A program made the position numbers and the translations under genes. A model generated the notes under the pieces. The model was not told where the DNA came from. It searched no databases and saw only the letters and a list, made by a program, of their open reading frames with translations. From Pseudomonadota bacterium (GTDB lineage: Bacteria; Desulfobacterota; Desulfobulbia; Desulfobulbales; Desulfocapsaceae), in assembly GCA_018817385.1 (NCBI GenBank), contig JAHIUA010000063.1:62001-126000 (forward strand): DNA of 64,000 nt, in the 5' to 3' direction. Shown piece after piece: positions 1-30,148 of this stretch. Positions within the stretch are counted from its first letter, which is position 1. Each line of letters starts with the position of its first letter.

Positions 1-278
1 TGGCCCATACGCGACACGGGAATCGCGGCCGTAACCCCTAAATAATCAAAAAATTTGCGGAGAATTTGTCCCTGGTCGAGCGAGCCAAGGTAATGGACTC
101 CCACAGCACACTCAATCCCATCGCGGGTGTAACTGCGCATCAGACCACCCACTTGCCTGTTCTTCTCCAGGACGGTGACGTCAAAACCAAGCTTGGCAAG
201 TATAATTCCACTGCTCAGGCCGCCGACACCGGAACCGATGATCAGAACATCTTGAGGAATAGATGAATGCGGTACCAT
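1..278 (-). CDS. FAD-dependent oxidoreductase, CrtI/phytoene-desaturase-like, N-terminal part (runs off left edge)
   Basis: Only the first 92 codons lie in the window. Translation from the ATG at 278-276 gives MVPHSSIPQDVLIIGSG followed by VGGLSSG, a GxGxxGG dinucleotide-binding motif, then a Rossmann-type strand ending in VLEKN, then VGGLMRSY and GVHYLG. This pattern is typical of the phytoene desaturase/carotenoid isomerase/amine oxidase superfamily, which desaturates or isomerises polyene or lipid chains using FAD. The start lies 3 bp after the stop of the SPASM radical SAM gene, so it is the last visible gene of block A. Its place beside acyl-chain enzymes suggests it oxidises the cluster product. 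Substrate and exact subfamily cannot be judged from a fragment. Confidence 0.75.
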   Translation of the reverse strand, partial: MVPHSSIPQDVLIIGSGVGGLSSGIILAKLGFDVTVLEKNRQVGGLMRSYTRDGIECAVGVHYLGSLDQGQILRKFFDYLGVTAAIPVSRMG

Positions 279-281
279 GTG

Positions 282-1331
282 CTAGTTACAGGTCCCAGCT
301 TTTTTCAGGCCGGCGTTGCGCCAACAGGTGGGGTCTGAAGCCAGATAATCCCCGGTAAGCTGGTAGGCTGCGCCGCGACAGCCATAACATTCTTCCGCCT
401 TTTCACAGTCACGACACTCGCCCTTGATCATTTCCCGGTAATTTTTCAGATTATTGATGACTTCACTGTTTTTCAGGATATGAGCCAACCTGTTGTTGCG
501 TATATTATCCAGCGGAATAGTGACCCCGACACAGGGCATGACATCCCCCCTGGCTGTCACCAGACAAGAGACCTGATGACGCATACATTTATTGCCCACC
601 AGTGGCGGTTGCGGTTCCCAATGACGGCCATATTTTTCCTTATCGATCTCCGAAAGCCGTGAAAACAAGTGCTTCAAGGCTTGCGCATCTACTGAGAGCC
701 AGCTATTTTCGAGGGCATTTTCCTGGGGAGTAATCACCTCAAAATAGGGCTCTATGCCCTCATCGCGCAGCCACTGCCACATCTCCGGCAGCTCGCCAAG
801 ATTCTGCTGGCAGATGATGGTGCTCATAGCCAGAAACAGATGCGGCGCCGGATAGCCGGCCTGTTTCAAGTTGGCGAATGCGCTTTGGATAATGTCAAAG
901 GCACCGGTTCTGCCGGCCAATTGGTCCTGAATTTCCCTGTTTCTTGAGTTCAATTTCAAGACCACCCGCACTTGAGCCTGGGCCAGAATCGCAGCAAGCT
1001 CAGGAGTCAGGCCGCTTCCATTGGTAAACATTTCAATTTCAAAGTTATGCTCATGAAGAAAGGATATCATTTCAACAAGGTGGGGATAAATACTTGGTTC
1101 ACCACCCAAAATAATAATCTTTCGTGCCCCCATTTCCTTGGCCTGGAGGAGAACATCCCTGAGTTCCTCTCGGGATAGCTCATCTGTACAGTCACGTTTC
1201 TCGGGAACATAGCAGTAGGAGCAGCGAAAATTGCAAATCCGGCTGAATTCGATTTCCATGGACAATAGCCTGCCTGCGGCCACCGCTTCCTTTATTTCCT
1301 GCTCGGTAAATTCAAGATTATATAACTGCAT
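282..1331 (-). CDS. Radical SAM protein with SPASM-like C-terminus
   Basis: This 349-residue protein carries the radical SAM cluster motif CNFRCSYC (Cys33, Cys37, Cys40), followed by a GGEP motif (IILGGEPSIYPH) that binds SAM. The C-terminal third is cysteine-rich (CMRHQVSC, MPCVG, CRDCEKAEECYGCRGAA), matching a SPASM/twitch domain that holds auxiliary iron-sulfur clusters. SPASM proteins usually modify peptides or small molecules; no precursor peptide gene is visible nearby. It lies in block A between a B12-type radical SAM gene (117 bp gap) and the FAD oxidoreductase (3 bp gap), so a lipid or polyketide substrate is inferred. Family assignment is firm; the reaction is unknown. Confidence 0.85.
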   Translation of the reverse strand: MQLYNLEFTEQEIKEAVAAGRLLSMEIEFSRICNFRCSYCYVPEKRDCTDELSREELRDVLLQAKEMGARKIIILGGEPSIYPHLVEMISFLHEHNFEIEMFTNGSGLTPELAAILAQAQVRVVLKLNSRNREIQDQLAGRTGAFDIIQSAFANLKQAGYPAPHLFLAMSTIICQQNLGELPEMWQWLRDEGIEPYFEVITPQENALENSWLSVDAQALKHLFSRLSEIDKEKYGRHWEPQPPLVGNKCMRHQVSCLVTARGDVMPCVGVTIPLDNIRNNRLAHILKNSEVINNLKNYREMIKGECRDCEKAEECYGCRGAAYQLTGDYLASDPTCWRNAGLKKAGTCN

Positions 1332-1448
1332 TATTCATTTTCGCCTGCAATCAGGTCACTCGTATAAGATTGGTAAAAATTTGACTTCCTGGCGATGCCT
1401 CGACAGAGAGACGAGAGACTTCGCAATCGTCGCTTTTCTGCCCCATCA

Positions 1449-3763: not shown

Positions 3764-3818
3764 TTTGATGGTTCACCAGAAAAAGAAACCTCTCGGCGGC
3801 ACTCACTCCTGTACCCGT

Positions 3819-5929: not shown

Positions 5930-6934
5930 ATGAGCAAAAACGCTTTTCAGGTGCTGAGGGCCTTACTGGTATTTCTCGGAATATTGCTGATTGGTACCGT
6001 CGGCAATATGTATTTTGAACACAATAGTTTTATTGATGCCCTCTACATGACAGTCATAACCGTATCCACAGTGGGATACGGAGATATGGTACCGGTACAG
6101 CCATCAGGTAAGATATTTACTGTGCTTCTGGTACTGGGAGGCGTTGGCTATGTCATGTACATATTTTCAAAACTTATGGAAGCCATGGTAGAAGGTGGTC
6201 TCCGCGAAATTCTGGGGAAGAGGAAGATGGCAAAGGAACTGGCTCGCTTGAAGGATCATTATATCATCTGCGGATATGGTCGTATCGGCAAGGTAATCTG
6301 TGAGACACTGGCTGAAAACGGCAAGAAATTCGTGGTGATTGAAAACAATTCTGAGGAGATACAGACCATCATCAACAATGGTTTCTACGGCATAGAAGGA
6401 GAGGCCTCAGGGGACGATGTTCTGGTTCAGGCCGGTATCCACCAGGCCGCAGGACTGATCGCCGTTGTTTCAACGGATGCCGACAATGTCTTTATAACGC
6501 TGACAGCAAGAGGGCTCAATCCAGGCATTGACATCCTGGCCCGTTCCAGCGGGGCAACAGGCTCAGAGAGGAAATTAAAACGGGCAGGAGCCAATCGTGT
6601 AATTTCTCCTTATTCCATCGGCGGCAAGCGAATGGCCCATGCCGTGGTTCGCCCCAATGTGATCAACTTCCTTGAAATGACCATGCAGGTTGATGAATAT
6701 AATCTGCAGATGGAAGAGATGCCGGTCAGTGAGAATACAGAACTTCAGGGAAAGACGCTGATGCAATCCAACATACGAAATGATTTCGACATCATCGTCA
6801 TCGGTATCAAACGCCTGGATGGAACAATGCTGTTTAACCCCAGACCAGATACCCTGATCCTGGCTCGAGATATCTTGATCGTACTAGGAAAAAAGGCGCA
6901 GATTGCCCGTCTGAAAAAGGTGCTCTCTTCTTAG
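5930..6934 (+). CDS. Two-TM potassium channel with TrkA-N (RCK) domain
   Basis: This 334-residue channel of the MthK/Kch type has a first hydrophobic helix at about residues 8-25, a pore loop with the K+ selectivity filter TVGYGD (residues 47-52) and a second helix at about 60-85. An RCK/TrkA-N domain follows with the nucleotide-binding motif CGYGRIGK, and then a TrkA-C-like end (FDIIVIGIKR). Such channels gate K+ flux in response to ligands bound by the RCK domain. It sits between two minus-strand blocks of the biosynthetic cluster but is probably an unrelated housekeeping gene. A second channel of this general type lies at the right edge of the window. Confidence 0.92.
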   Translation: MSKNAFQVLRALLVFLGILLIGTVGNMYFEHNSFIDALYMTVITVSTVGYGDMVPVQPSGKIFTVLLVLGGVGYVMYIFSKLMEAMVEGGLREILGKRKMAKELARLKDHYIICGYGRIGKVICETLAENGKKFVVIENNSEEIQTIINNGFYGIEGEASGDDVLVQAGIHQAAGLIAVVSTDADNVFITLTARGLNPGIDILARSSGATGSERKLKRAGANRVISPYSIGGKRMAHAVVRPNVINFLEMTMQVDEYNLQMEEMPVSENTELQGKTLMQSNIRNDFDIIVIGIKRLDGTMLFNPRPDTLILARDILIVLGKKAQIARLKKVLSS

Positions 6935-8050: not shown

Positions 8051-8760
8051 GACCTTGTCCTCCCGGAAAAAATCCGTTTCCAGATCAATCGGCTGAAGGT
8101 GCTGGAGTTTCTCCAGAAATCTTTCCAGGGATGAAAATGAGATATCCGTTCAGCGCCCTTCTGGTAGACCACCTGAACCGGCGCCTCAAGGACAGAAATT
8201 CCCTGTTCGCGGGCCTTGACCAGGATTTCCACTTCGAACTGAAAACGCCTGGCCTGAACATCAAGATTCAAGGCCTCGGGCAGAGGATAGAGCCTGAAAC
8301 CCGATTGAGAATCCTCAACCAGCGGGCCACCCGATACCCAGACCCAGAAATTGGAAAATTTCCTCCCGAACCTGCTGGTCCAGGGAACGTGCTGGCCACT
8401 CATCCCCTGGCGCCTGCCGATAACAATGGGGCGCAGCGTATCCGGCACGGCCCGGAGAAGGTTGGGGATATCCTCTGCTTTGTGCTGGCCGTCGGCATCA
8501 AGGGTGACCACCCAGTCGCAGGACTTACGTGCGGCCTTGAAACCTGTGCGCAAGGCAGCACCTTTGCCCCGGTTCTCTGGATGGGTGAGGACGGTGATCC
8601 CCTCCAGGGAGCTCAAGACTTCCGCCGTGGCATCCGTTGATCCGTCATCGACCACAAAAACAGGGAACCCCAGAGTGCCTGCCTCATAAACCACATCCCT
8701 TACCCGTGAACCATGATTATAGGTAGGGATGACGATACCAACCCTGCTCTGCTTCAGCAT
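8047..8760 (-). CDS. Family 2 glycosyltransferase (dolichyl-phosphate mannosyltransferase-like)
   Basis: This 237-residue GT-A enzyme begins with VGIVIPTYNHG, has VVDDGSTD as the nucleotide-sugar motif and DADGQH as the metal-binding region, then a DSQSGFRLYP segment typical of DPM1/ArnC-like transferases. It lacks the C-terminal membrane helices of ArnC. Aryl polyene clusters carry a glycosyltransferase next to or fused with an acyltransferase, and here the same pair is encoded by overlapping genes (8047-8050). It probably places a sugar between polyene and lipid anchor; acceptor and donor are unknown. Confidence 0.88.
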   Translation of the reverse strand: MLKQSRVGIVIPTYNHGSRVRDVVYEAGTLGFPVFVVDDGSTDATAEVLSSLEGITVLTHPENRGKGAALRTGFKAARKSCDWVVTLDADGQHKAEDIPNLLRAVPDTLRPIVIGRRQGMSGQHVPWTSRFGRKFSNFWVWVSGGPLVEDSQSGFRLYPLPEALNLDVQARRFQFEVEILVKAREQGISVLEAPVQVVYQKGAERISHFHPWKDFWRNSSTFSRLIWKRIFSGRTRS

Positions 8761-11896: not shown

Positions 11897-11897
11897 C

Positions 11898-18603: not shown

Positions 18604-19379
18604 ACACAACCTCTTACTGACGAAATGACGAAAAAGAATAGAGCTCGAAAAATTAATCAGTTACAATGAGTATAACTTATTTTCATATGACTGGCTATTC
18701 TCACTTTTCCCCCTCGGCAATTGACACACCGATTGAGTACGTTGACCTTCGTCGCTGCCACTCTGCTCCAGCTGCAAAAAACACTTCCAACTGTTCTACT
18801 TTATTTTATTTGAATGACAACAACTAAGGAGATCTCCGTCACAAAATTCCACCTGTTTTTCCAAAACCGGATCGATGTCTGGCAGTTACCCAGCAGCCCA
18901 AACCGCTTTTGCCTCTTCAGCGGGGAGCAGGCGCCCATATTTTCTCGCTTTTCCTCTCTGAATTGACACACAAGAAACGCTTCACCTCTCTCTGCTCTGC
19001 CCCATGCCAGAGGATCTGCCGGTGTTCTCGAGTGTTGAACATTTCCCTCAGCGTAACTACACAGCAACACTTCATCTTCCTCCACTCAGGTCTTCTCGAA
19101 GAGCACGAGTAGCATCGAAGGCCTGACTGAACGAAGAGAAAGCACTGCACACCAGGTACCGAGCAGTTGTTTGCCTTGTATTGGCCGTTACCTGAATAAT
19201 TACGCCTCAGTTGCCAAATCAGATGACAAATAGTTATGGCCGTTATAGTATGATTTTGACATTACGCTGCCATACGGAGAGCAAAGACAAGCATCCTCTT
19301 TTGCCTGGTTCTCTACTCCATACGATTATTCACTGATTCGATAACGCTGCCCTGAAACCTGAAAAAAAAATAAAAGAAC
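18604..19379. promoter_or_regulatory. Divergent intergenic region between kinase/block B and block C
   Basis: This 776 bp region lies between divergent genes and is the likely control region of the two largest parts of the cluster. The short ORFs in it (for example around 18801-19150 on both strands) have no ribosome binding site, no recognisable family and overlap each other, so they are not called. No convincing promoter boxes or repeated operator sites were found by eye. The ACP gene at 19380 is preceded by an A-rich stretch rather than a clear Shine-Dalgarno sequence. Confidence 0.45.
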
Positions 19380-19646
19380 ATGGATACCTTAACAGAAGAA
19401 CTGAAAAACAAACTCATAGAAATCCTCAACCTGACCGATGTGAGCCCTGAAGATATTGATGAAAATGAGCAACTGGTGGGTGGTGAGCTGGGCATTGACT
19501 CCATTGATGTTCTGGAGATGGTGGTCATGGTTGAAAAAGAATATGGCGTTGTCATTAATAACAAGGAGATCGGCGAAAAGGTCTTTTCTACCCTTGCCGC
19601 ACTTGCCGAATACATTCACAGCAACTCACCCCGCCTCTCTTCTTGA
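19380..19646 (+). CDS. Acyl carrier protein (first gene of block C)
   Basis: This 88-residue ACP has the phosphopantetheine site at Ser41 in the motif LGIDSIDVLEM. It overlaps the ketosynthase/CLF gene by 4 bp (TTGA), so ACP and condensing enzyme are made together. It is the natural partner for chain extension by that enzyme, as in type II polyketide and aryl polyene systems. Confidence 0.92.
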   Translation: MDTLTEELKNKLIEILNLTDVSPEDIDENEQLVGGELGIDSIDVLEMVVMVEKEYGVVINNKEIGEKVFSTLAALAEYIHSNSPRLSS

Positions 19647-21808
19647 ATAGAAACAACGTCTATATTGCCGGGGCTGGGATCCTCAGTCCCCTTGGTATTG
19701 GCCTCGAGGCCACGGAAAAAGCGCTGCGGGAAAACAGGTCAGGGATTGGTCCGCTTGGGGTTTTCTCCATCCGACACCCTCCTGCCCTGCCCGTAGCAGA
19801 GGTCCAGGAGCTAGCCGATTCCCCCCTTCCCCGGACCCACACCCTGGCCATCCAGGCTGCCCTGCAGGCCATGGGTGATCGCAGGGAGGCACCGGATGCA
19901 ATCATCCTCGGCACCACCACCGGCGGCATCCTGAGCACGGAACAGCTGCTCACTGACAAAGTACAGAATCCTCAGAAATATAGCTACCACGGCCTGTCCA
20001 CCGTGGCCGAGGCCGTTGCCAGACAACTTCGCTGCCCCGGCAAAGCTCTCACCGTTTCCACGGCCTGCTCCTCTGGGGCTGTGGCCATCAGCCTGGCCTT
20101 AAAAATGCTGCAAAGCGGAAAGGCCGAGTGGATTCTTGCCGGGGGGGCAGATTCACTCTCCCACTTGACCTATTTCGGATTCCACTCCCTCCAGCTTGTC
20201 GATCCCGGAGGCAGTAAACCCTTTGACAAAAATCGACAGGGCATGTCCGTGGGTGAAGGTGCGGCCCTGCTGCTTCTGACCACGACGAAACCCGAAAAAC
20301 CACTGGCTCAACTCCTTGGCGCAGGTCTATCCTGCGACGCCTACCATGCAGCCGCTCCTCAGCCCCAAGGAAAAGGGGCCGCCAAGGCAATGCAGACGGC
20401 CCTGGAAAATGCTGGTCTGACAGCGGACGATATCGATTATATCAGCCTGCACGGCACCGGAACAGCTGATAATGACCGGGCAGAAGCCAAAGCGGTCAGT
20501 GATCTCTTTCCGCAGCCACCTCCACTTTCTTCGATTAAGGGCGCCACCGGTCACGGCCTGGCCGCAGCAGGGGCCATTGAAGCGGTGGTAGCCGCGCTGG
20601 CTATCGAAAAAAGCTTCCTGCCAGCCAACACCGGTTACCGTGAAGCCGACCCTGAACTGCAGCTCACTCCCCTTGACAAGCCTGTCAGCCATTCAACAGC
20701 AGCCGTCCTCTCCAACTCATTTGGTTTTGGCGGCAACAATGGCTGCCTGATCATTGGCCGACCCGATACCTTTGCCGCAGTCCGGCCCCTCCTCCAAAGT
20801 GCTCCTCTCAGCATTCTCGGCACCTCCTGCATCAGCGGCGCCGGTAACAAAGAGGCGAGTATGAGCCGTCTTTTGCAGGGAAAATCCATGGCCGGCATGC
20901 TTGACCTCGATGCCATCTCAAAAAATCTTCCCACCAGAAAGATACGCAGGCTGAAACGCCTTTCCCGACTTGCTCTGTCCCTGGCCGCTGCAGCCTATGA
21001 CGATTCAGGCCTGACGCAGCCCCCGAAGAGTGTCTTCATGGGCACTGGCTGGGGGGCACTCTCCGAGACCTACGACTTTCTCAAAAAGTTACGGGACACA
21101 GAGGAACAATTTCCCAGCCCCATCGATTTTGTCGGATCGGTTCACAACAGCGCTGCCGGCCAGGTGGCGATCATGTTTGGATCCACCATGGCAAACATCA
21201 CAACCAGCGGTGGCGATTACTCCTTTGAGCAGGCAGTGCTGGCAGCAGAGACAATGCTCGATGATACCTCCCCTCCTGCCTTTGTCCTCAGCGCCGACGA
21301 GGGCCATGACCAATTTTCACCACTTTTCGATCCATCCATCCAACCGGGAGCCCCCCTGGCGGACGGTGGTGGCGGCTTTTGTCTGTGCAGAAAAGCGATA
21401 CCGGGAAAGGTGGCGCTCCAGATCCCCTTTTACCGTCCGGCCGCTGCCCCAGGAGTTCTCGACGCCCTGGTAAATGCCCTGGGAGGTGCAGAGAGGCTGC
21501 GAAACCAAAACGGTCTCATACTGGCGGGCATCCCAGCCTGTTCAAGCAAAGATGGGGAACAGCAACTGCTCGAGTTCCTCAACAAAACAATGCTCTCTGT
21601 TCCTGTTCTCCACTACCGGGAGATGAGCGGAGAGTTTGCCTCTGCCTCAGCGCTGGCGGCCGTCATGGCTGTCCATTTTCTCGAGACAGGGCTCTTCCCT
21701 CCCCCCCTTGCCTCTCAAGGCCGAGAGGGTCTTTTACCTGCTGCCAAAAAAGTACTGGTCCTGGGCCTGGGTACGACCATTACGGCCATGGAGTTTTGGA
21801 TTCAGTGA
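19643..21808 (+). CDS. Fused ketosynthase and chain-length-factor-like protein
   Basis: This 721-residue protein consists of two thiolase-type modules. The first (about 1-375) is a complete ketosynthase with Cys142 in STACSSG, His270 in LHGTGT and His304 in TGHGLAAAG. The second (about 388-720) starts again with LSILGTSCISGAG and has the fold features of a beta-ketoacyl synthase N-terminal domain. At the active-site position it reads TTSGGDYSFEQA with no Cys. It therefore resembles a chain-length factor or the non-catalytic Ketoacyl-synt_2 partner found as a separate gene in aryl polyene clusters. A covalent KS-CLF pair would fix the 1:1 ratio. The start is a TTG at 19643 inside the ACP stop; the radical SAM gene follows with a GTGA overlap. 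Confidence 0.87.
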   Translation: MNRNNVYIAGAGILSPLGIGLEATEKALRENRSGIGPLGVFSIRHPPALPVAEVQELADSPLPRTHTLAIQAALQAMGDRREAPDAIILGTTTGGILSTEQLLTDKVQNPQKYSYHGLSTVAEAVARQLRCPGKALTVSTACSSGAVAISLALKMLQSGKAEWILAGGADSLSHLTYFGFHSLQLVDPGGSKPFDKNRQGMSVGEGAALLLLTTTKPEKPLAQLLGAGLSCDAYHAAAPQPQGKGAAKAMQTALENAGLTADDIDYISLHGTGTADNDRAEAKAVSDLFPQPPPLSSIKGATGHGLAAAGAIEAVVAALAIEKSFLPANTGYREADPELQLTPLDKPVSHSTAAVLSNSFGFGGNNGCLIIGRPDTFAAVRPLLQSAPLSILGTSCISGAGNKEASMSRLLQGKSMAGMLDLDAISKNLPTRKIRRLKRLSRLALSLAAAAYDDSGLTQPPKSVFMGTGWGALSETYDFLKKLRDTEEQFPSPIDFVGSVHNSAAGQVAIMFGSTMANITTSGGDYSFEQAVLAAETMLDDTSPPAFVLSADEGHDQFSPLFDPSIQPGAPLADGGGGFCLCRKAIPGKVALQIPFYRPAAAPGVLDALVNALGGAERLRNQNGLILAGIPACSSKDGEQQLLEFLNKTMLSVPVLHYREMSGEFASASALAAVMAVHFLETGLFPPPLASQGREGLLPAAKKVLVLGLGTTITAMEFWIQ

Positions 21809-23151
21809 AAGTCCTCCTCATCTCCCCCAACACCCTCACGGTTCCCTACCCTGTTTACCCCATAGGCCTTGACTATGTTGCAGGCTGCCTCGCAGCTGAG
21901 CATCAGGTGGAGATAGCGGACCTGAACATCATCGACCGAGAGGGCCTGGCATCACTGCTTCTTGACTTTTCCCCGGACATTATCGGCCTCTCCCTGCGGA
22001 ATGTGGACAATACCGAGATTGAGACCCCACTCTTTTTCATTGAAGAGTATAAAGAACTGGTCGCCTGGTTACGAGCCCGGAGCCAGGCAGTTCTGGTCTG
22101 TGGCGGAGCGGGATTCACCATCCTGCCCCAGGAGATCTTTGCTGCCCTTGACCTTGATTACGGCATCATCGGCGAAGGAGAGCGATTTGGCCTCCTTGTA
22201 GATGCTCTGGCAAACAAGCACTCACTCTCAGACATTCCTGGACTGCTCAGTCATTCAGGACCAGCCCAGGTACCTGCCCCCTGGACTGGCAAACAGCAGA
22301 GACACGTTCCCCGGAGCACCGCCCATTATCAGTTTTACCTGGACCATGGCGGGATGCTGAACCTGCAGACCAAGCGCGGCTGTTCATTTCGCTGCATCTA
22401 CTGCCCCTATCCCCACATTGAAGGAAAAACGCAGCGACTGCTCCCACCGGACGAGGTGGCCCGCACCGCACTTGGCCTGGAGCAGGCCGGAGCAAAATAT
22501 TTTTTCATCACCGATTCCATCTTTAACTCAGATATCGGCCACAGCCTGGCGGTGGCAAAAGCCTTTCAACAATGCGGTGTCTCCATTCCCTGGGGTGGTT
22601 TTTTTGCGCCGCTCAAGCTGCCAAAGGGTTATTTCAAGACCATGCACGAGGCCGGTCTCAAACATGTGGAGTTCGGCACCGAATCCCTTTGCCGCAAAAT
22701 GCTGCAGAACTACCGTAAACCCTTCCAGCCAGAAGATGTCCTGACTGCCCACAGACAAGCCCTGGACGCCGAACTGCACGTGGCACACTATTTTCTCATG
22801 GGCGGACCTGGCGAGTCGGAAAACACGGTCCAGGAAACATTGACCAACATCGCATCTCTGAACAAAACCGTCCTCTTCTTTTTCACCGGCATCAGAATCT
22901 ATCCCCACACCGCTCTTTATGATCTCGCACTTGCTGAAGACCAGATTTCAGCGACCACTGATTTGTTAAAACCCGTTTTCTATGAAAGCGATGCCATCAC
23001 TCATCAGGCAATTGAAAAAGCTATTCTCCATCAAGCTGGAAAACGTATCAACTGGATTGTGGGCTCCGGCGGCACCGAAGCAGCAGCCACGGTAAGTAAA
23101 ATGCATCAGCGTGGCTACACAGGACCACTGTGGGAATATTTGATTCGATAG
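21805..23151 (+). CDS. B12-binding-domain radical SAM protein
   Basis: The 448-residue protein starts at a GTG overlapping the ketosynthase stop (GTGA). It has an N-terminal B12-type Rossmann domain (MKVLLISPNTLTVPYP, IIGLSLRNVDNT, VLVCGGAGFTILP, IIGEGER), a radical SAM domain with CSFRCIYC (Cys193, Cys197, Cys200) and a late MGGPGESE. A longer open frame extends upstream to 21379 inside the ketosynthase gene, but that part is a shadow. Tight coupling to the condensing enzyme suggests it acts on the ACP-bound or released polyene chain. The chemistry (methylation, cyclisation, ring contraction) is unknown. Confidence 0.87.
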   Translation: MKVLLISPNTLTVPYPVYPIGLDYVAGCLAAEHQVEIADLNIIDREGLASLLLDFSPDIIGLSLRNVDNTEIETPLFFIEEYKELVAWLRARSQAVLVCGGAGFTILPQEIFAALDLDYGIIGEGERFGLLVDALANKHSLSDIPGLLSHSGPAQVPAPWTGKQQRHVPRSTAHYQFYLDHGGMLNLQTKRGCSFRCIYCPYPHIEGKTQRLLPPDEVARTALGLEQAGAKYFFITDSIFNSDIGHSLAVAKAFQQCGVSIPWGGFFAPLKLPKGYFKTMHEAGLKHVEFGTESLCRKMLQNYRKPFQPEDVLTAHRQALDAELHVAHYFLMGGPGESENTVQETLTNIASLNKTVLFFFTGIRIYPHTALYDLALAEDQISATTDLLKPVFYESDAITHQAIEKAILHQAGKRINWIVGSGGTEAAATVSKMHQRGYTGPLWEYLIR

Positions 23152-23313: not shown

Positions 23314-23691
23314 ATGTGGTATTCATACATTACAATTCAGCAGAGCGATGATGGTGCGATTACGGCAAAAGTAACAACCGATTCGCAGTCGCCTTGGTTT
23401 GCAGGACATTTCCCGGGTGATCCTATTTTGCCCGGCATAGCCCAGCTGAAGATGGTGACAGATGTCATCGCCAAAGCTCTGGAGAAAGATCTGCACTTGA
23501 TTGGTTTAACAAGAATTAAATTTAAAAAACTTATTCGGCCAGGAGTTATGCTCGATATCCATGCCAGTAGCACGAAGCAAGAGAACAACTTTTCTTTCCG
23601 TATCACCAGTAATCGGGAAAACGTCTGCTCCGGTACACTGACACTGGCCGCCAAACAGGAGGTAGAAATTCACCAGTCCACTCTCACCTGA
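23314..23691 (+). CDS. FabZ/ApeI-like hotdog dehydratase
   Basis: The product is a 125-residue single-hotdog protein with the FabZ hallmark WFAGHFPGDPILPGIAQL (His32). In FabZ a Glu follows in the central helix (VEAMAQ); here the aligned position is Lys46 in QLKMVTD, so the classical His/Glu dyad is incomplete. ApeI-type members of aryl polyene clusters belong to this subfamily. The ATG at 23314 is chosen; a TTG at 23290 is also in frame. It lies 162 bp after the radical SAM gene in block C. It may be a dehydratase using another acidic residue, or an isomerase or non-catalytic partner. Confidence 0.78.
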   Translation: MWYSYITIQQSDDGAITAKVTTDSQSPWFAGHFPGDPILPGIAQLKMVTDVIAKALEKDLHLIGLTRIKFKKLIRPGVMLDIHASSTKQENNFSFRITSNRENVCSGTLTLAAKQEVEIHQSTLT

Positions 23692-23835
23692 CCAGCATGG
23701 CCTGTGGAAGAGGCAATAGACTCTCCGGGCCTGAGCAAGTGAATCTGTGGTACCGTACCCCTAATACTGTATTGGTTAAACAAAATCAGTGATGTACCCG
23801 GCGCATTATTACAACAGGAGAATTAAAAGAAATTC

Positions 23836-24102
23836 ATGAACACAGATATCAGTCAGACCATTACCCGTATTGCCGAAATCATCATCAACGAACTCAAACT
23901 CGAAGATGTGACCCCAGAGACCTTTGATGCTGATCTCGATCTCATTGATGAGGTCGGTGTTGATTCCATGGACCTGGCAACCATTGCTCTCGTCCTCCGT
24001 GATGAATACGGAATCAGAATTGACGAAGATGACTACCCCAAGTTGACAACTATCCGCATTATTGCCGAATATATCGACAACAAGTTAAAAAGCGACGACT
24101 GA
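23836..24102 (+). CDS. Acyl carrier protein (upstream of the paired radical SAM genes)
   Basis: This 88-residue ACP carries Ser44 in GVDSMDLATIA as the phosphopantetheine site. It is followed after 3 bp by a radical SAM gene, then a second radical SAM gene and two ketosynthases, so it probably holds the chain on which those enzymes act. The Shine-Dalgarno-like CAGGAGA lies about 15 nt from the ATG, farther than usual. The preceding 144 bp after the FabZ-like gene hold no ORF and could contain an internal promoter. Confidence 0.9.
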   Translation: MNTDISQTITRIAEIIINELKLEDVTPETFDADLDLIDEVGVDSMDLATIALVLRDEYGIRIDEDDYPKLTTIRIIAEYIDNKLKSDD

Positions 24103-24105
24103 GTG

Positions 24106-25173
24106 ATGGATCAAGGCGCAACAAACAGAGTATACAAATTTTCGGAGATCATAGCCGACCCGGCCATTGGTGCCTGTTGGCAAAAAGTACGCAAATATTT
24201 TTTCCTCCGCGAATCCACCTACGATATGAGCAATCGCTGCAATATCCGTTGCGAAGGCTGCTACTATTTTAATGGCGAGAAACAGTTTGCCAAAGAAAAC
24301 CTCAATGTTAGCGACTGGAAGCATCTCATGGAGGGTGAAAAGGAACGGGGAATCACCTTTGTTGTCCTGGCCGGTGCCGAACCATCCCTGGTGCCGCAGT
24401 TGTGCCAGACCTGCTACGATGTGATTCCTCTGGGCTGCATTGCCAGCAATGGCCTGAATGTGCTGCCCAGAGAGATCGATTACCGCATCCATATCTCCGT
24501 CTGGGGCAATGACCAGACCAGTCTTGAAATCAGAAAGGCCAAGGATATGCTGGCCAGACAGATGGTTAATTACCAGGATGACCCGAGGGCAGTCTGGGTC
24601 TACACCTTTACCCCGGTCAATATCGACCAGGCCCGGGAAGTAACCGAGCTCCTGGCGGCCAACGGCCAGCAGATCACCTTCAATATGTTTTCATCGCCGG
24701 TGGGATACAGCGGCCATCTGCGGCACACCCCCGAAACCCTGGCTCACACCCGTGCCACCATGAGTGAGCTGCTTGCCGAATTTCCGCAGACAGTACTCTT
24801 TTCCCCTTATAATATAGTGGCCCACACCCACACCCGGGGCCTGCATGATCTTTTTTCCTGCTCCTACCCCCGGATGAACCCATCCACCGCCATTGGCCTG
24901 GGCAGATCCTTTCGCCAGTATCGCACCGATCTGCAGTGGGATCGTGCCGCTGCCTGCTGTGTCCCCGATACAGACTGCGATGACTGCCGCCATTATGCCG
25001 CCGGCAGTGCCGTGGTCACCGCAAGGATGTACCGCCACGCCACCGACCCGACCACCTTTTCCGCCTGGCTGGATTACGTGGATACCTATCTTGCGGTCTG
25101 GGTCAGGGGATACGAAAAGAGTGCTCCACTCTGCAAGCAACTGATTGAACCACCGGACTTAGTTGAGAGTTGA
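24106..25173 (+). CDS. Radical SAM protein (paralogue 1 of a tandem pair)
   Basis: The 355-residue product has CNIRCEGC (Cys45, Cys49, Cys52) followed by an aromatic run YYF and a VVLAGAEPSL motif in place of the usual GGEP. A second cysteine group near the C-terminus (CCVPDTDCDDC) may bind an extra cluster. The ATG at 24106 is three bases after the ACP stop; a GTG directly upstream is also possible. The protein is a clear paralogue of the next gene in layout and motifs. Unlike the three B12-type proteins it has no N-terminal cobalamin domain. Substrate probably ACP-bound; reaction unknown. Confidence 0.85.
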   Translation: MDQGATNRVYKFSEIIADPAIGACWQKVRKYFFLRESTYDMSNRCNIRCEGCYYFNGEKQFAKENLNVSDWKHLMEGEKERGITFVVLAGAEPSLVPQLCQTCYDVIPLGCIASNGLNVLPREIDYRIHISVWGNDQTSLEIRKAKDMLARQMVNYQDDPRAVWVYTFTPVNIDQAREVTELLAANGQQITFNMFSSPVGYSGHLRHTPETLAHTRATMSELLAEFPQTVLFSPYNIVAHTHTRGLHDLFSCSYPRMNPSTAIGLGRSFRQYRTDLQWDRAAACCVPDTDCDDCRHYAAGSAVVTARMYRHATDPTTFSAWLDYVDTYLAVWVRGYEKSAPLCKQLIEPPDLVES

Positions 25174-25239
25174 GAGTTGAAAAACACTTGCTATTGGTCC
25201 CTGATCTTTTACTGAAAATTTTACTCGACCTTCCCTATC

Positions 25240-26238
25240 ATGAAAACAGTCAGCTCCCTCCTCGACGACCATTGGTATGAGCGCTACAAAAAAATATCCA
25301 GGCTCAATATCCGCAGTTCCATATATGACGTGACAGACCGCTGCAACCTGCGCTGTAAGGGATGCTTCTTCTTTTCCTCGGGTGAACATGAACGGGCTTC
25401 AGAAGAAAATGACGTCAGTAAATGGCATGCCTTTGTCGAAAAAGAAATGGATCGCGGCGTCAATCTGGCCATCCTCATCGGCGGCGAGCCCACCTTATGT
25501 CTGGACCGCATTGAGGCCTTTTACCAGCGCTTACCCACCTTCTGTGCCACCAATGGCCTGATCAAGGTGCCCAGAGACCGTTTTCCGGACATGATGGTCG
25601 GCCTCTCCTTGTGGGGGGATGAAGAGGATGAAATAGCCCTGCGCGGCAAAGACACCTTTAAAATCACCAGCGCCAATTATGCAGGAGATCCTCATGCCTA
25701 TTACCTCTATACCATTACCCCCAAGCAACTGGGCAAAACAGGGAAAATAATCCAAAAGATCAAAGATATCGGCCTGAAGGTGCACATGCAGCTCCTCTCC
25801 AACGACGAGGGCGTGGACGGCTTTTCCTGGAAACCCGAAGAACTGATCGCCGTGCGGGCAGAGATGGATGCCATGCTTGATGCCTACCCGGAAACGGTTA
25901 TCTCCTCGAAGTACTATCACAAGGTCATCACCACCGGCCGGATGCTCGACAGAAAATTCGGCTGGATGGAGTGCCCTTCGGTAACAGAGCCCATCGACAA
26001 ACGTGATCCCCGCCCGAAACGTCTCACCAACTTTATCCGCTGGGCATCGGATCTGGAGACCATGCACCGCTGCTGCACCTCTGAAACCCGTGACTGTTCG
26101 ACCTGTAAGGATGGCGCGGCCCATATGAGCTGGGTCATGGTCAACAAACGGGCCCACATCAACACCACAGAAGACCTCCAGAACTGGATAGAGGTGTATG
26201 AAATGTTTGCCAAGCTCTACCAGTTTATCCCCTGGTAA
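25240..26238 (+). CDS. Radical SAM protein (paralogue 2 of a tandem pair)
   Basis: This 332-residue protein carries CNLRCKGC (Cys35, Cys39, Cys42) followed by FFFSSGE, a canonical ILIGGEPTL SAM-binding motif, and a C-terminal cysteine group (CCTSETRDCSTC). It shares layout with the preceding gene, including the aromatic triplet after the cluster motif, an SL/SVWG motif and the position of the C-terminal Cys group, so the two arose by duplication. It follows after a 66 bp gap with a short GAGTTGA repeat and precedes a ketosynthase by 9 bp. Duplicate radical SAM enzymes could act at two sites on the chain or form a heterodimer. Confidence 0.85.
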   Translation: MKTVSSLLDDHWYERYKKISRLNIRSSIYDVTDRCNLRCKGCFFFSSGEHERASEENDVSKWHAFVEKEMDRGVNLAILIGGEPTLCLDRIEAFYQRLPTFCATNGLIKVPRDRFPDMMVGLSLWGDEEDEIALRGKDTFKITSANYAGDPHAYYLYTITPKQLGKTGKIIQKIKDIGLKVHMQLLSNDEGVDGFSWKPEELIAVRAEMDAMLDAYPETVISSKYYHKVITTGRMLDRKFGWMECPSVTEPIDKRDPRPKRLTNFIRWASDLETMHRCCTSETRDCSTCKDGAAHMSWVMVNKRAHINTTEDLQNWIEVYEMFAKLYQFIPW

Positions 26239-26247
26239 CCAAAACCG

Positions 26248-27498
26248 ATGAAGAGCAGCAAACCTGTCATCATCGGCTACGACGCCATCTCTGCCCTGGG
26301 AATCGACCTGGATGGGCAATGGCAGCGAGCCCTGCGAGGAGAAAGCGGTATCGGACCGCTGAGCCGTTTTCCGCTGACCCATGATTTTCCTGTCCGTATT
26401 GCCGGTCAGCTGGCGGACATTGACCATCTCCCTTATCCCTTTCTCTCCGCCAGGCATCAGGCCAGCTGGAGCTCGCCGGTATTCAAATACAGCATGCTCT
26501 CTGTTGCCCGGGCCCTGGAACGAAGCGGCCTTGAGATAAGCCCTGAACTCGCGCCCAGAGTTGCCGTCACCTATAGTTCAGCCATTGGCGGCCTGGATGC
26601 AGTCCTGCATGCCGACCGTCGCCTGCAGGCAGAGAACAAGCTCCCTCCGCCTTACGCAAACCCCAACTCCTGTATCAACATGGTTGGCGGCAAGATTGCC
26701 ATCCTGACAGGAGCACAGGGACCGATTGTCTCACCCATCACTGCCTGTGCCACCGGCCTCACCTCCATGATTACCGGCGCCATGTTTCTGGCCCAGGACA
26801 GAGCCGATGTAGCCATCTGCGGCGCAGTTGATTTTGCCCTGGTCGAACCCATTGTCGCCGGTTTTTACACCATGAACGGCGTATACAACCCAAAGGATGG
26901 TCAGGAAGAGGAAGCGCCGCAGGCCGCAAGCCGCCCTTTTTCCCTGAATCGGCGAGGCTTTGTCCTCTCAGAAGGGGCAGGCGCTGTAATCCTAGCCAGC
27001 CGGAAATTTGCCGAAAGCCATGGCCTTCCCTTCAGCACCGAACTGGCCGGCTGGGGTATGACCTCGGATGCCCACCATTTTGTGGCCCCCTACTTCCAAA
27101 CCATCAAGAAATGCATGCAGGATGCCATAGAGGATGCAGGCATCAGTCCGGCAGATATTGCGGCCATCAACGGCCATGCCGCCTCAACCCGGGTCGGCGA
27201 CAAGGTCGAATATGATGCCCTGCGGGCACTCTTTGGCAACAGCATGCCACCCGTCTCCGCCAATAAATCCCTTATCGGCCATGCCATGGGTGCATCCAGC
27301 GTCATTGAATCCATCTTTGCCATCCAGGGCATGAAGGAGGATGTTCTCCTTCCCACCATCAACTACCTCCCTGACCCGGAAATCGAGATAGACTGTGTGG
27401 CAAATACAAAAAGACAACTCCCCCAGGAGTATGTCCTGAAAAACTCTTTCGGCTTTGGCGGCTGTAACAGCTGTGCTGTATTGAAAAGGGTAAATTGA
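26248..27498 (+). CDS. Beta-ketoacyl-ACP synthase
   Basis: This 416-residue ketosynthase has Cys167 in ITACATG, His310 in INGHAAS (a variant of the usual HGTGT) and His345 in LIGHAMGAS, so the triad is intact. It ends with NSFGFGGCNSC. It follows the second radical SAM gene by 9 bp and precedes another ketosynthase by 19 bp. The variant second His motif and the pairing with a second KS suggest specialised chain extension or a KS heterodimer, as in ApeO/ApeC and ApeR/ApeC type complexes (analogy only). Confidence 0.9.
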   Translation: MKSSKPVIIGYDAISALGIDLDGQWQRALRGESGIGPLSRFPLTHDFPVRIAGQLADIDHLPYPFLSARHQASWSSPVFKYSMLSVARALERSGLEISPELAPRVAVTYSSAIGGLDAVLHADRRLQAENKLPPPYANPNSCINMVGGKIAILTGAQGPIVSPITACATGLTSMITGAMFLAQDRADVAICGAVDFALVEPIVAGFYTMNGVYNPKDGQEEEAPQAASRPFSLNRRGFVLSEGAGAVILASRKFAESHGLPFSTELAGWGMTSDAHHFVAPYFQTIKKCMQDAIEDAGISPADIAAINGHAASTRVGDKVEYDALRALFGNSMPPVSANKSLIGHAMGASSVIESIFAIQGMKEDVLLPTINYLPDPEIEIDCVANTKRQLPQEYVLKNSFGFGGCNSCAVLKRVN

Positions 27499-27517
27499 AA
27501 GCCACGCCAATACGTTT

Positions 27518-28783
27518 ATGAAAGCACCACAAAACAGAAGAGTCTTTGTTGTCGGCTACAGCGCTGTCACCCCCCTTGGCAGCACCTTCAACAAAACCTG
27601 GCAGGCCGCAGTTGCAGGAAAGGCAGGATTTCGCAGAGTAAGCAGGTGCGAGACCGACAGCCGCAGTAATGTGGTGGGAGAAATACCGGACTGGGACCCG
27701 ACCCAGTTTTCCTATGTCAGCCGCAAAGAGGCCTCTATCTGGGATGCCGCCTATGTCTTTCTTACCATGGAGGCCTGTAAAGAGGCACTTGCCCATGCAG
27801 GCCTGGAAATGGACAGGCAGACCGGGCCCAGAACCGCCTGTCTGATCGGTTCGGCATTAAACGGTACCGACTCCTACCGTATTGCCATGGACAACTATGT
27901 CAACCGGGGACCGTTTAAGGTCAGTCCCTATCTCCTGCCCAATGTCTGTGCCAACCTCCCTGCCGGCAAGGCCGGCATGCTGCTGGGTTTTACAGGGCCT
28001 ATTTTTTCTCCCCAGGGCGCCTGTGCCTCGGGCAACCATGCCCTGGCCATCGGCGCCAGGATGATCCGTGACGGCGACTGCGATTTTGTCCTGGCCGGAG
28101 GTGTAGAGACCTGCCTGATACCAGAGATCATCCAGGGATTCTCCAATATGCTGGCGACAATCAAGGTGGGTCCCAAGGATCGTGCCCATGCCGACCCCAC
28201 CCAGGCTTCACGGCCGTTCAGTCTCGACCGCAAAGGCTTTGTCCTTTCCGAGGGTGCAGCAGTGCTGGTGCTTGCGGCAGAAGACACAATCAAGGCACTG
28301 GGCCTGCAGCCAAAGGCAGAGATCGGTGGAATCGGCTGGACCTCTGACGCCAAGCATTTCACCCGCCCAAACACGGAAACAATAGTCCGGGCAATCCATG
28401 AAGCCATTGCTGATGCAGAGATCAGCCCACAGGACATTGGCAGCATCAATGCCCACGGGACCTCGACCCCCACCGGCGATGCCACTGAGGTGGAGTGCCT
28501 GCGGCAAGTCTTCGGCAAAGGGATCGGACGTATTCCCATCACTGCCAATAAGTCGCAGATTGGGCACAGCCTCGGCGCTTCAGCGGCCATTGAAGCGGCC
28601 CTGTCCATTGAAGCCATGTCCCGATCCATCCTCCTGCCCACCGTGAATCATATTCCGGACCCAGCCTTTGATGACCTCGATGTGGTGCCCAACCAGGCCC
28701 GCAACCATGTATACGAGACTGTTCTTTCCAACTCATTCGGCTTTGGCGGCACCAACTGCTGCATTGTCTTCAAGGGAATCTAA
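27518..28783 (+). CDS. Beta-ketoacyl-ACP synthase
   Basis: A 421-residue ketosynthase with active-site Cys169 in PQGACASG, a second-motif His in NAHGTST and a third in QIGHSLGAS, and a C-terminal NSFGFGGTNC. The sequence around Cys (GACASG) differs from the STAC motif of typical FabF and from the other KS genes here, so this is a distinct subtype rather than a recent copy. It follows the KS at 27498 by 19 bp and precedes the thioesterase by 28 bp. It probably works with the neighbouring KS on the same ACP-bound chain. Confidence 0.9.
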   Translation: MKAPQNRRVFVVGYSAVTPLGSTFNKTWQAAVAGKAGFRRVSRCETDSRSNVVGEIPDWDPTQFSYVSRKEASIWDAAYVFLTMEACKEALAHAGLEMDRQTGPRTACLIGSALNGTDSYRIAMDNYVNRGPFKVSPYLLPNVCANLPAGKAGMLLGFTGPIFSPQGACASGNHALAIGARMIRDGDCDFVLAGGVETCLIPEIIQGFSNMLATIKVGPKDRAHADPTQASRPFSLDRKGFVLSEGAAVLVLAAEDTIKALGLQPKAEIGGIGWTSDAKHFTRPNTETIVRAIHEAIADAEISPQDIGSINAHGTSTPTGDATEVECLRQVFGKGIGRIPITANKSQIGHSLGASAAIEAALSIEAMSRSILLPTVNHIPDPAFDDLDVVPNQARNHVYETVLSNSFGFGGTNCCIVFKGI

Positions 28784-28811
28784 CCGCCTATCTTTGCAAG
28801 AGAAAAACACG

Positions 28812-29294
28812 ATGCGACCCAAACCGTTTATCCCTGAATTACTGCCGGAACATCCTTCCCATGTCCGAGATGGCAACAGCGGCAAGATCTGGCACCGCTG
28901 CGAGATGCGGACCCTCTATGTTGATACGGATCGTTCCCAGGTGGTCTATCATGCCAACTACCTCAGATACTTCGAATTCGGCAGGGCATCGCTCATGCGT
29001 GAGGCCAACTACCCATATAAGAGCATCGAAGAAAGCGGTTACATCTACCCCATCATCAAAACCGAACTCAACTATTACACCCCTCTCTACTACGATGACC
29101 TGATGATTATCCATACCCGGCCGGCAAAGCTGGAACTGGTAAAACTGCAGTTTGATTATTGCATCACCAGGGCAGAGGACGGGGAGATAATCTGCACCGG
29201 ATACACCAAACACTGTGCCGTAAACAGGGACGGCGTCCCTGTGGAGATCGATGCCAAGACCATCAAGCTCTGGAATCAATTTCCTCGCTCATGA
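28812..29294 (+). CDS. Acyl-CoA/acyl-ACP thioesterase (YbgC/FadM-like 4HBT hotdog)
   Basis: The 160-residue product has the 4HBT signature TLYVDTDRSQVVYHANYLRYFE, in which the Asp of VDTD and the YHANY region form the active site of 4-hydroxybenzoyl-CoA-type thioesterases. Its longer open frame begins upstream within the KS gene, but the ATG at 28812 fits the family start. Such thioesterases are standard in aryl polyene clusters (ApeK-like) and release or edit the chain. It overlaps the next gene by 4 bp (ATGA). Confidence 0.88.
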   Translation: MRPKPFIPELLPEHPSHVRDGNSGKIWHRCEMRTLYVDTDRSQVVYHANYLRYFEFGRASLMREANYPYKSIEESGYIYPIIKTELNYYTPLYYDDLMIIHTRPAKLELVKLQFDYCITRAEDGEIICTGYTKHCAVNRDGVPVEIDAKTIKLWNQFPRS

Positions 29295-30148
29295 TGTCCA
29301 GCCGCAGGCCTGTTCAGATCCTGATCAAACCCTGGTTCCACGATCATTGTTTTAACGGAAAAGGTATCCTTCCGGCAGTGGAAATAATGGAGGTCCTAGC
29401 TTCCGCTGTCCAGGCCATACGACCTGCCAGTCATCCCTGGGAAATGAGCAAGGCCAGTTTTTCGAAGTTTCTTGAGATTCCCGCAGGGGCGACAGAATTG
29501 TCAGCCCTGGTTGAATATGAGGAAAGAGACAAGGACGAGATCTGTAGCAGACTGCTCAGCCGTATACGCCTCAAAAAGATCACCAGAATCAAAGAACATG
29601 CACAGATAATATTTTCCACTCATTTCCCGGAAGCGACGAATACAGGCACCACAGATCTTTTTGAGGCCATAGAGACAAGCTGTTCCGTGGCAGCAGAACG
29701 AATTTATCGGGAGCTGGTCCCCTTTGGCCCGGCCTACCACACCTTGACCGGGCCCCTCCATCTCTCAGTTCAAGGGGCATGGGGGAGGCTGCAAGCACCA
29801 CTGCTGAGAGAAGAGGAACAGGAAGCCAAGACCCTCGGTTCCCCCTTCCCCCTTGACGGAGCCATGCATGCCGCCTGTGTCTTTGGTCAGTGGGTTGCCG
29901 ATTTTGTTCCCTTTCCCGTCGGTTTTTCCAGGCGAACAATCCACACCCCGACACAAGCGGGAGAACAATACCTCACCAAAGTCGTTCTTGTCTCACAGAG
30001 CAGAGAGGAACTCATTTTCGACCTTTCCATCTTCGATAGAGCAGGAACACCCTGTGAAACCGTACAAGGGTTACGGATGCGGGATGTCAGTGGAGGAAAA
30101 ATCACCCCCCCGGACTGGCTGAGAAGCAACCGCTTTGCCAAGAGCTAA
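29291..30148 (+). CDS. Double-hotdog dehydratase, PKS-DH type
   Basis: This 285-residue protein consists of two hotdog halves. The first contains PWFHDHCFNGKGILPAVE, matching the His region of polyketide synthase dehydratase domains. The second contains FGPAYHTLTG and FPLDGAMHAA, matching the Asp region, so the His/Asp dyad of PS-DH enzymes appears intact. It dehydrates 3-hydroxyacyl thioesters, and is a third dehydratase in the cluster beside the ApeP-like and FabZ-like proteins. It starts at ATG 29291 (or 29294) overlapping the thioesterase stop, and is the last gene of block C. Confidence 0.75.
   Translation: MMSSRRPVQILIKPWFHDHCFNGKGILPAVEIMEVLASAVQAIRPASHPWEMSKASFSKFLEIPAGATELSALVEYEERDKDEICSRLLSRIRLKKITRIKEHAQIIFSTHFPEATNTGTTDLFEAIETSCSVAAERIYRELVPFGPAYHTLTGPLHLSVQGAWGRLQAPLLREEEQEAKTLGSPFPLDGAMHAACVFGQWVADFVPFPVGFSRRTIHTPTQAGEQYLTKVVLVSQSREELIFDLSIFDRAGTPCETVQGLRMRDVSGGKITPPDWLRSNRFAKS

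Follow-up and report, generated by a model that had tools for sequence, protein, structure and literature searches.

The closest described relatives of the system reported here are the aryl polyene (APE) clusters of Escherichia coli CFT073, Xenorhabdus and Acinetobacter, the flexirubin clusters, and the candidate ladderane clusters of Kuenenia with their counterpart in Desulfotalea psychrophila. Here we describe nearly 30 genes, conserved as a set, which as annotated from sequence combine APE-like machinery with six radical SAM enzymes in a sulfur-cycle bacterium of the order Desulfobulbales. The set lies in a stretch of 64,000 nucleotides (hereafter the window; positions 62001-126000 of contig C10), part of a genome of 5.38 Mb in 105 contigs that was scored as 100% complete and 2.67% contaminated.

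APE biosynthesis starts from 4-hydroxybenzoate carried on an acyl carrier protein (ACP), according to the portions of two reports cited here (PMC8253772, PMC8358021). The excerpted text of Rattray et al. (2009) describes four Kuenenia clusters with radical SAM genes, phytoene-desaturase-like enzymes and FabF paralogues, including ketosynthases (KS) with replaced catalytic residues, and reports these clusters to be syntenic with D. psychrophila, in which ladderanes were looked for and, as stated there, not found, C31:8 and C31:9 hydrocarbons being reported instead (PMC2649909). Javidpour et al. (2016) expressed the Kuenenia candidates in E. coli, without success by the account in the cited part of their paper (PMC4790861), and the enzymes that make ladderanes are described as unknown (PMC4790861, PMC9821293, both excerpted). 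A 2023 survey, again cited from a portion of its text, places ladderane-type clusters in Desulfobacterota and other phyla, with function unknown outside anammox bacteria (PMC9902471); its antiSMASH 'ladderane' biosynthetic gene cluster calls are non-anammox clusters resembling ladderane candidates.

A conserved locus and two exclusive cluster types

Two operons diverge from a common middle within positions 1-30148 of the window, a left one on the minus strand (genes L14 to L0, in descending order from the middle outward) and a right one on the plus strand (R1 to R11, in that order). Neighboring genes overlap at eleven joints, by 4-7 bases at ten of these and by 65 bases at the other, and since gene content and order also recur across Desulfobulbales, the arrangement is beyond chance. 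The initial annotation had listed three ACPs, four ketosynthases, a domain resembling a chain length factor (CLF), one ketoreductase, three types of dehydratase and six radical SAM proteins, all of which were found. Two features had been overlooked, a gene that fuses DAK2 and DegV domains (8754-10526) and a module for export (56425-61073).

Searches of 146 genomes of the order showed the unity of the cluster. The family of R6 (24106-25173) and its paralogue R7 (25240-26238) was recovered with R6 in 47 genomes, 46 of which held at least two matches. L10 (11898-13160), a B12-binding radical SAM protein to which no named family is close, was matched in 71 genomes at E 1e-100, and by our reading of a gap in the scores its matches fall into a type I class (866-930 bits at full length; 46 genomes) and a type II class (590-639 bits at full length; 25 genomes), partial copies being classed by bits per aligned position. 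R6/R7 accompanied all 46 type I L10 genes and none of the 25 of type II. The single R6/R7 genome without a type I L10 (G005) has no L10, and type I L10 was never seen without R6/R7. The order has two alternative, exclusive cluster types, I and II, the window being of type I. This co-occurrence (46 genomes with both, one and none with either alone), together with the conserved gene set, led us to reject the idea that the radical SAM genes are housekeeping neighbors, the very outcome that had been named as fatal to a single pathway.

Gene content was counted in 21 genome regions, none longer than 40 kb except the window's own (84 kb), contig ends and the 40-kb limit making all counts lower bounds. 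Genes R4 to R11 were present in all 21 regions, R1 and R2 in 18, L10, L13 and L14 in 16, and L6, L8 and L9 in 15, as was L7 (with one weak match of 37% away from the cluster, in G120). These were followed by L3 to L5, L11 and L12 (14 regions each), R3 (13), L1 (11), L2 (10) and L0 (2). The placement of six radical SAM genes in one cluster stands in that all belong to the conserved set, but the six are not invariant, R6/R7 alone occurring in every region. In all 16 regions where L14 and R1 were both found, the two genes point away from each other, with 192-581 bp between them in 14; the gap reaches 3.7 kb in this genome and 6.4 kb in G041 because other genes lie between. Both blocks fall within the fetched stretch in 16 of 21 regions. 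Overall, the two operons behave as one unit.

The aryl polyene-like assembly line

The reference for comparison was the E. coli CFT073 cluster (NC_004431, 1143727-1158748; 18 proteins, with gene letters assigned from order and product names). Counterparts were found for 14 of the 18 proteins (ApeC, D, E, F, H, I, J, K, L, M, O, P, Q and R), and the proposal of an APE-like assembly line was borne out to this extent. Since many of these matches concern broad families, the specific support comes from ApeR/L4 and ApeO-ApeC/R2. L4 (3819-5054) is a ketosynthase 39% identical to E. coli ApeR, and it scores 328 and 327 bits against structures 7F27 and 4EWG, which are ApeR according to the cited part of their description (PMC8358021); the best FabB reaches 223 bits, about 105 lower. 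R2 (19643-21808) carries ApeO and ApeC counterparts in one chain as a KS-CLF fusion (37% identity to ApeO, and 31% to ApeC over 116 residues). Its best structural match was 9S5H (194 bits), followed by the APE complexes 7F28 (186) and 6QSP (184), with the best FabF at 166. The top match of the CLF half was chain B of 6QSP, the ApeO-ApeC complex as given in the same excerpt (PMC8358021).

The catalytic Cys-His-His triad is intact in all four ketosynthases, counting the window's own sequences: L4 (14 of 14), the N-terminal half of R2 (17 of 17) and the FabF-like R8 (26248-27498; 21 of 21) and R9 (27518-28783; 21 of 21). The CLF half of R2 has Gly-Gly at the presumed Cys position, placed by eye, in 17 of 17 sequences. 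The three ACPs, L5 (5232-5489, ApeF counterpart), R1 (19380-19646, 44% identical to ApeE) and R5 (23836-24102), keep the phosphopantetheine serine in the aligned sequences. A single ketoreductase, the FabG-type L13 (14430-15173), is 45% identical to ApeQ. Dehydratases are of three types: the ApeP-like L14 (15233-15667), a profile match only, at 20.4 bits and under the Pfam cut-off of 27; the FabA/ApeI-like R4 (23314-23691), whose two top structural matches are the uncharacterized 3ESI and 6QSR, which we take to be an APE dehydratase; and R11 (29291-30148), a stand-alone double-hotdog dehydratase of polyketide synthase (PKS) type with motifs HxxxGxxxxP and DxxxH.

Activation, release and attachment functions complete the likeness. 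They include an AMP-forming acyl ligase (L9, 10523-11962, ApeH counterpart), a 4HBT thioesterase (R10, 28806-29294, ApeK), a PlsC-type acyltransferase (L3, 2936-3763, ApeD), an LpxL-type acyltransferase and a family 2 glycosyltransferase (GT2) that correspond to the C-terminal and N-terminal parts of ApeJ (L6, 7181-8050, and L7, 8047-8760), a LolA-like carrier (L12, 13828-14436, ApeL) and, in the export module, an MMPL exporter (X2, ApeM). The small protein L11 (13157-13831) has a lipoprotein-like signal, LLTAC, seen by eye, and occupies the ApeN/DUF3261 position, with no significant match to ApeN/DUF3261. The window thus shares with the APE clusters of E. coli CFT073, Xenorhabdus and Acinetobacter a KS-CLF pair, an ApeR-like KS, a ketoreductase, two hotdog dehydratases (R4, L14), two ACPs (R1, L5), a ligase, a thioesterase and an export and attachment set (L12, X2, L3, L6 and L7). 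In contrast with those clusters, KS and CLF are fused and ApeJ is split into two genes, and the locus adds the six radical SAM enzymes, a CrtI-like enzyme, a third ACP, two ketosynthases, the PKS-type dehydratase and a fusion resembling FakA and FakB.

The origin of the starter may also differ. Neither PF00221 (aromatic ammonia lyase) nor PF04345 (chorismate lyase), the two starter families searched, was matched in the genome; in 14 control genomes these families were matched in 5 and 1, respectively. The absence of PF00221 likewise separates the window's genome from flexirubin clusters, which it approaches through L13, which scores 285 bits with FlxB (under the cut-off of 340), and through the ligase of type II clusters described below.

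Six radical SAM enzymes and the R6/R7 pair

Three of the six radical SAM proteins (L1, L2, L10, R3, R6 and R7) have a B12 domain, one is a SPASM protein and two are paralogous. L1 (282-1331) matches Radical_SAM at 96 bits and SPASM at 29.5 bits, with CX3CX2C in 9 of 9 sequences; this motif is present in every aligned radical SAM sequence except one truncated R7 row, which has a gap there. L2 (1449-2939) is B12-binding and BchE/HpnR-like, under the family cut-offs. R3 (21805-23151), also B12-binding, is a member of NCBIfam TIGR04072 (rSAM_ladder_B12), aligning to positions 1-443 of 443 with 383.4 bits against a cut-off of 360. L10 and R6 had no Pfam Radical_SAM match at E 0.001 and that of R7 was under the Pfam cut-off; these three are called radical SAM proteins because of motif and alignment and, for R7, also the predicted fold.

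R6 and R7 are about 30% identical to each other and belong to a family without a name: R6 matched no Pfam family at E 0.001, and neither protein scored above any NCBIfam cut-off. Besides the three cluster cysteines, five more are common to 28 hand-picked sequences that include distant relatives, as would be expected for an auxiliary Fe-S cluster. R6 is 67-93% identical to the window's copy in 46 other genomes of the order and R7 is 83-97% identical in 17 rows, and this high identity indicates strong constraint. Alignments comprised the window with 17 of 19 R7 references (A1), 8 of 10 references (A2) or 14 of 14 (A3), two truncated sequences being left out of each of the first two; a fourth (A4) excluded L214, whose frame is broken by a stop.

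An AlphaFold model of R7 built from 18 near-identical rows was useless (predicted local distance difference test score, pLDDT, of 39.8), and the model from a hand-picked 28-row alignment that included R6 and distant relatives reached a pLDDT of 89.4. Foldseek searches with this model returned only general radical SAM/SPASM folds (the best being 5WHY, ChlB, BlsE and anSME; query-normalized template modeling scores of 0.52-0.58), from which no function could be read. A search of PDB sequences with the 28-row profile placed SkfB first at 3e-13, a matter of superfamily kinship only. Single R6/R7-like proteins lie beside an alpha/beta-hydrolase-like gene, identified by eye, in two Chromatiales genomes (L215, 1144-2238; L216, 1456-2550) that show no KS cluster there. 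Since such proteins occur outside KS clusters, the family is wider than this pathway.

Type II clusters and the ladderane candidates

Searches with TIGR04072 at E 1e-60 matched 70 of the 146 genomes, 59 of them above the family cut-off, and none of 14 control genomes. Best scores of 562-612 bits were found in 23 genomes, 20 of which are type II for L10, and scores of 337-401 in 42 genomes, of which 38 carry R6/R7 and three are type II; five genomes scored lower. Nine of the 47 R6/R7 genomes fall outside the 337-401 group. G061 and G067 are R6/R7 genomes in which the contig bearing the cluster also encodes a type II-like TIGR04072 protein (about 598 bits); both are possible type I/II hybrids.

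The composition of type II was read in 7 of the 25 genomes with a type II L10 (the loci of G007 and G039 being cut or ending early). The L10-like and TIGR04072 genes adjoin in all seven. Around this pair most loci have a KS, a CrtI-like gene (5 of 7), an ACP, PlsC, a ligase, a SPASM radical SAM protein (matched in 4 of 7), GT2 and an acyltransferase, and mostly also an ACP, a KS, FabG, LolA, MMPL (6 of 7), a dehydratase, a thioesterase and a KS. The one type II ligase tested was closest to flexirubin FlxY, at 422.7 bits and under the cut-off of 520. In comparison with type II, the window's type I cluster has L2, R6/R7, R8/R9, the PKS-type dehydratase, the KS-CLF fusion and the FakA-FakB-like fusion.

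The G004 locus runs from the L10-like gene through a small open reading frame (ORF), SPASM, a FlxY/PaaK-type ligase, PlsC, ACP and KS to CrtI, an order that would correspond to DP1853 to DP1860 of D. psychrophila. When an opposite-strand ORF is left out, the count of same-strand genes from the L10-like gene to CrtI equals the spacing of DP1853, DP1855 and DP1860. Because this gene spacing fits the locus numbers, the D. psychrophila cluster is probably of type II, a link made by locus-number arithmetic, as that to Kuenenia is made through the gene lists of the papers. If so, the window's type I cluster is probably a sister architecture of it, differing from a D. psychrophila-like type II in its ApeH-like ligase and three extra radical SAM genes. 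The Kuenenia and D. psychrophila clusters of Rattray et al. share with the window type II fatty acid synthase (FASII) paralogues, radical SAM genes, a phytoene-desaturase-like enzyme, a ligase, a glycosyltransferase and a membrane protein. The link between such gene sets and ladderanes, drawn in the initial annotation, is indeed in print in the cited part of their report (PMC2649909) and in the NCBI name of TIGR04072. A related architecture having been described there in 2009, the suggestion of a wholly new class is not supported in that form.

Further genes of the cluster and its neighborhood

The CrtI/CrtD-like FAD oxidoreductase L0 enters the window only with its N-terminal part (3-278, minus strand; Pfam Amino_oxidase, with a CrtD-like score of 94 bits against a cut-off of 550). 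Its start is at 278 and its 496 amino acids run left past the window edge to position 60788 of C10, so that the gene is present as annotated but lies mostly outside. It was found in 31 of the 146 genomes (E 1e-60), all of them R6/R7 genomes; its membership in the cluster holds in this respect, but it is carried by just 31 of the 47. A PEMT/ICMT-type membrane methyltransferase follows straight after it (L001, 18174-18722), also stands beside CrtI in G056 (77%), and perhaps belongs to the cluster. L8 (8754-10526) joins DAK2, FakA-middle and DegV domains in a fatty-acid-kinase-like chain, with all three Pfam domains present and scores far under the FakA and FakB1 equivalog cut-offs.

The export module consists, on the plus strand, of a GT25-family glycosyltransferase (X1, 56425-57138), the MMPL exporter fused to a methyltransferase domain (X2, 57170-60235) and a polysaccharide deacetylase (X3, 60207-61073). 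ORFs that lie up to 12 kb from the cluster and are unmatched by its genes were grouped over 31 loci sets. The exporter family recurs in 20 of these sets, the member checked being an MMPL-methyltransferase fusion, and the glycosyltransferase and deacetylase recur in 13 each. X2 sits 27 kb from the cluster in this genome, but in relatives the exporter is close: its distance from R7 is about 5-8 kb in the Chromatiaceae Thiorhodococcus mannitoliphagus and Allochromatium palmeri and also in Desulfosarcina widdelii. Desulfatitalea alkaliphila has an exporter too. The possibility that the exporter was missing here was rejected once the window's own copy had been located. Just upstream of the module are two regulatory genes that may control it (53171-55856), one for a histidine kinase with PAS domain and one for a sigma-54 response regulator of NtrC type.

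Other genes of the neighborhood include, inside the cluster span, a TrkA-type K+-channel gene (5930-6934), matched in no other of the 21 regions, and a PAS histidine kinase (15724-18609). Genes for histidine kinases and response regulators appear by eye to be dense left of the cluster (L001, 2364-15548), and further kinase matches lie to its right (30292-31524, 41917-44379 and 44680-46326), as does a gene (35492-36934) whose product has the endosialidase chaperone domain Peptidase_S74, common in phage tail spikes.

Spread across bacteria

Of 345 genomes drawn from the phylum, 24 encode R7 (counting that of the window); 15 of the 24 lie outside the order, and R6 usually adjoins R7. A 25th genome has only a distant relative. 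A scan of 84,980 species genomes yielded 298 stretches encoding a relative, of which 80 were kept. Most of these are named as Desulfobulbales- or Desulfobacterales-type bacteria or 'Deltaproteobacteria', two as Chromatiaceae, and none of the 80 as an anammox bacterium or Desulfotalea. In a tree of 93 R7 rows, L102 (Proteobacteria bacterium) and L103 (Desulfocapsa sp.) were closest to the window. The two Chromatiaceae branch from within a clade of Desulfobulbus type; two of the branches that enclose them have starred support (100/98 and 100/93), and their innermost join, with D. rhabdoformis, has 100/74. Purple sulfur bacteria therefore most likely acquired the cluster by transfer. Only these two of the 119 genomes of their order have R7, five others having distant single relatives, two of which are beside an alpha/beta-hydrolase-like gene. 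Hosts of R7 available from culture collections include Desulfofustis glycolicus DSM 9705, Desulfogranum mediterraneum DSM 13871, Desulfogranum japonicum DSM 18378, Desulfobulbus rhabdoformis DSM 8777, Thiorhodococcus mannitoliphagus DSM 18266 and Allochromatium palmeri DSM 15591.

Proposed pathway and alternative explanations

We consider it rather probable that the locus encodes one APE-like pathway leading to an exported outer-membrane polyene lipid, the head group or chain of which is altered by radical SAM chemistry. Homology shows the core to be a polyene-type KS-CLF assembly line of the APE kind with export genes; from the same homologies we infer the order of reactions, a glycolipid end product and its outer-membrane site. 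Ligase L9 would load a starter acid on ACP R1, the KS-CLF R2 and the ApeR-like L4 would extend it with malonyl units, and reduction by L13 and dehydration by R4/L14 would yield a conjugated polyene, which thioesterase R10 would release. Acyltransferases L3/L6 and glycosyltransferase L7 could then build the glycolipid, and X2, the LolA-like L12 and the putative lipoprotein L11 could move it outward. A second acyl module (ACP R5, ketosynthases R8/R9 and dehydratase R11) may build or rewrite a starter or head group on its own ACP together with R6/R7, this rebuilt head group replacing a plain 4-hydroxybenzoate or coumarate starter. The B12-binding enzymes L2, L10 and R3 might then C-methylate or ring-close the ACP-bound chain, the CrtI-like enzyme might oxidize it, and L8 may re-activate the released acid as an acyl phosphate. 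The head-group role of R5-R11 with R6/R7, the methylation or ring closure and the acyl phosphate are guesses.

Several observations weigh against this proposal of a single APE-like pathway. ApeA, ApeB, ApeG and ApeN have no counterpart in this set, and the ACP, FabG, FabF-like KS, GT2 and MMPL matches concern broad families that ordinary lipid genes would match too. The supposed aryl-stacking Tyr/Phe of ApeR failed as a discriminator, being present in L4 (14 of 14) and, as aligned here, as the same letters in R8, R9 and R2. L2, R3, L1 and L0 are absent near the cluster in some relatives, whose regions are partly truncated. Finally, the roles given to the R5-R11 module and to each radical SAM enzyme are guesswork.

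Two pathways might instead share the locus, an APE-like pigment and an independent product of R5-R11 with R6/R7, which we regard as unlikely. In G133, and partly in G115, R4-R11 are separate from R1-R3 and L6-L14, and single proteins resembling R6/R7 occur at other loci, in two cases next to what by eye is a hydrolase-like gene. However, R6/R7 lacks a type I L10 partner in only one of 47 genomes, the R4-R11 block includes the counterparts of two APE proteins, the thioesterase and the ApeI-like dehydratase, and both blocks were recovered together in 16 of 21 regions.

That the cluster makes polyunsaturated fatty acids or hydrocarbons anaerobically, as Rattray et al. proposed for the D. psychrophila cluster and its C31:8/C31:9 hydrocarbons, is in our judgment quite improbable here. 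It is a published proposal accompanied by lipid data in the excerpt cited (PMC2649909), and a CrtI-like desaturase does stand beside KS and ACP genes. The close likeness to APE synthesis and export argues otherwise, since a glycosyltransferase, LolA and MMPL would be needless for free hydrocarbons, and other bacteria are described, in the text cited, as making long-chain olefins by oleABCD from two fatty acyl chains (PMC6463001). D. psychrophila itself presumably carries ole genes.

It is very doubtful that the product is a ladderane-like or otherwise polycyclic acyl lipid, in which a polyene intermediate would be ring-closed by a B12-binding radical SAM enzyme as proposed for Kuenenia. The region does unite radical SAM genes, a CrtI-like gene and several FabF paralogues, as in the published candidates (PMC2649909, PMC4790861, as excerpted), R3 passes the TIGR04072 cut-off, and some cobalamin-dependent radical SAM enzymes (BchE, HpnJ and OxsB) catalyze ring formation or rearrangement, enzymes of this kind having been proposed for ladderanes, according to part of a further report (PMC13142503). 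Yet R3 represents a distant form of TIGR04072, at 345-401 bits in R6/R7 genomes and with five under 360, against 562-612 for the type II form. No FabF paralogue has replaced catalytic residues like those of Kuenenia, the four ketosynthases being intact and the CLF half, without its Cys, alone being degenerate. The cited sections also report no ladderane in D. psychrophila despite its related cluster (PMC2649909), and no success with the Kuenenia candidates in E. coli (PMC4790861). We found no direct evidence for the polycyclic product that the initial annotation had raised as one reading, and a ladderane is unsupported for this cluster. Least probable of all is a known aryl polyene or flexirubin pathway with only minor head-group methylation by radical SAM enzymes in anaerobes, for although the APE core is present and the flexirubin-like scores (422.7 and 285 bits, cut-offs 520 and 340) point that way, six radical SAM genes, two extra ketosynthases, an extra ACP and the PKS-type dehydratase make a large and mostly conserved addition.

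Significance

No description of the type I cluster was found in the literature, as judged by titles and the beginnings of abstracts, which is weak evidence of absence. As far as this search shows, the present analysis adds the division into two exclusive types, an APE core that is nearly complete, the unnamed pair R6/R7, the module for export, the finding that the cluster has spread to purple sulfur bacteria, and named hosts in culture collections. We tentatively suggest, as a rather unlikely reading, that R6/R7 may be a new radical SAM family whose two members act together on an acyl chain bound to ACP and, with the B12-binding enzymes, give anaerobic sulfur bacteria a new polyene lipid that is cyclized or has a rearranged carbon skeleton, types I and II being alternative solutions for the same envelope lipid and the anammox ladderane pathway having grown from one of them.

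The widespread type I cluster shares kinds of parts with the ladderane candidates, as listed in the papers: a TIGR04072 radical SAM protein, further radical SAM proteins, a CrtI-like enzyme, KS and ACP. Its product can now be sought in strains from culture collections, the lipids of which would show what genes of this kind make and which radical SAM step comes nearest to ring closure.

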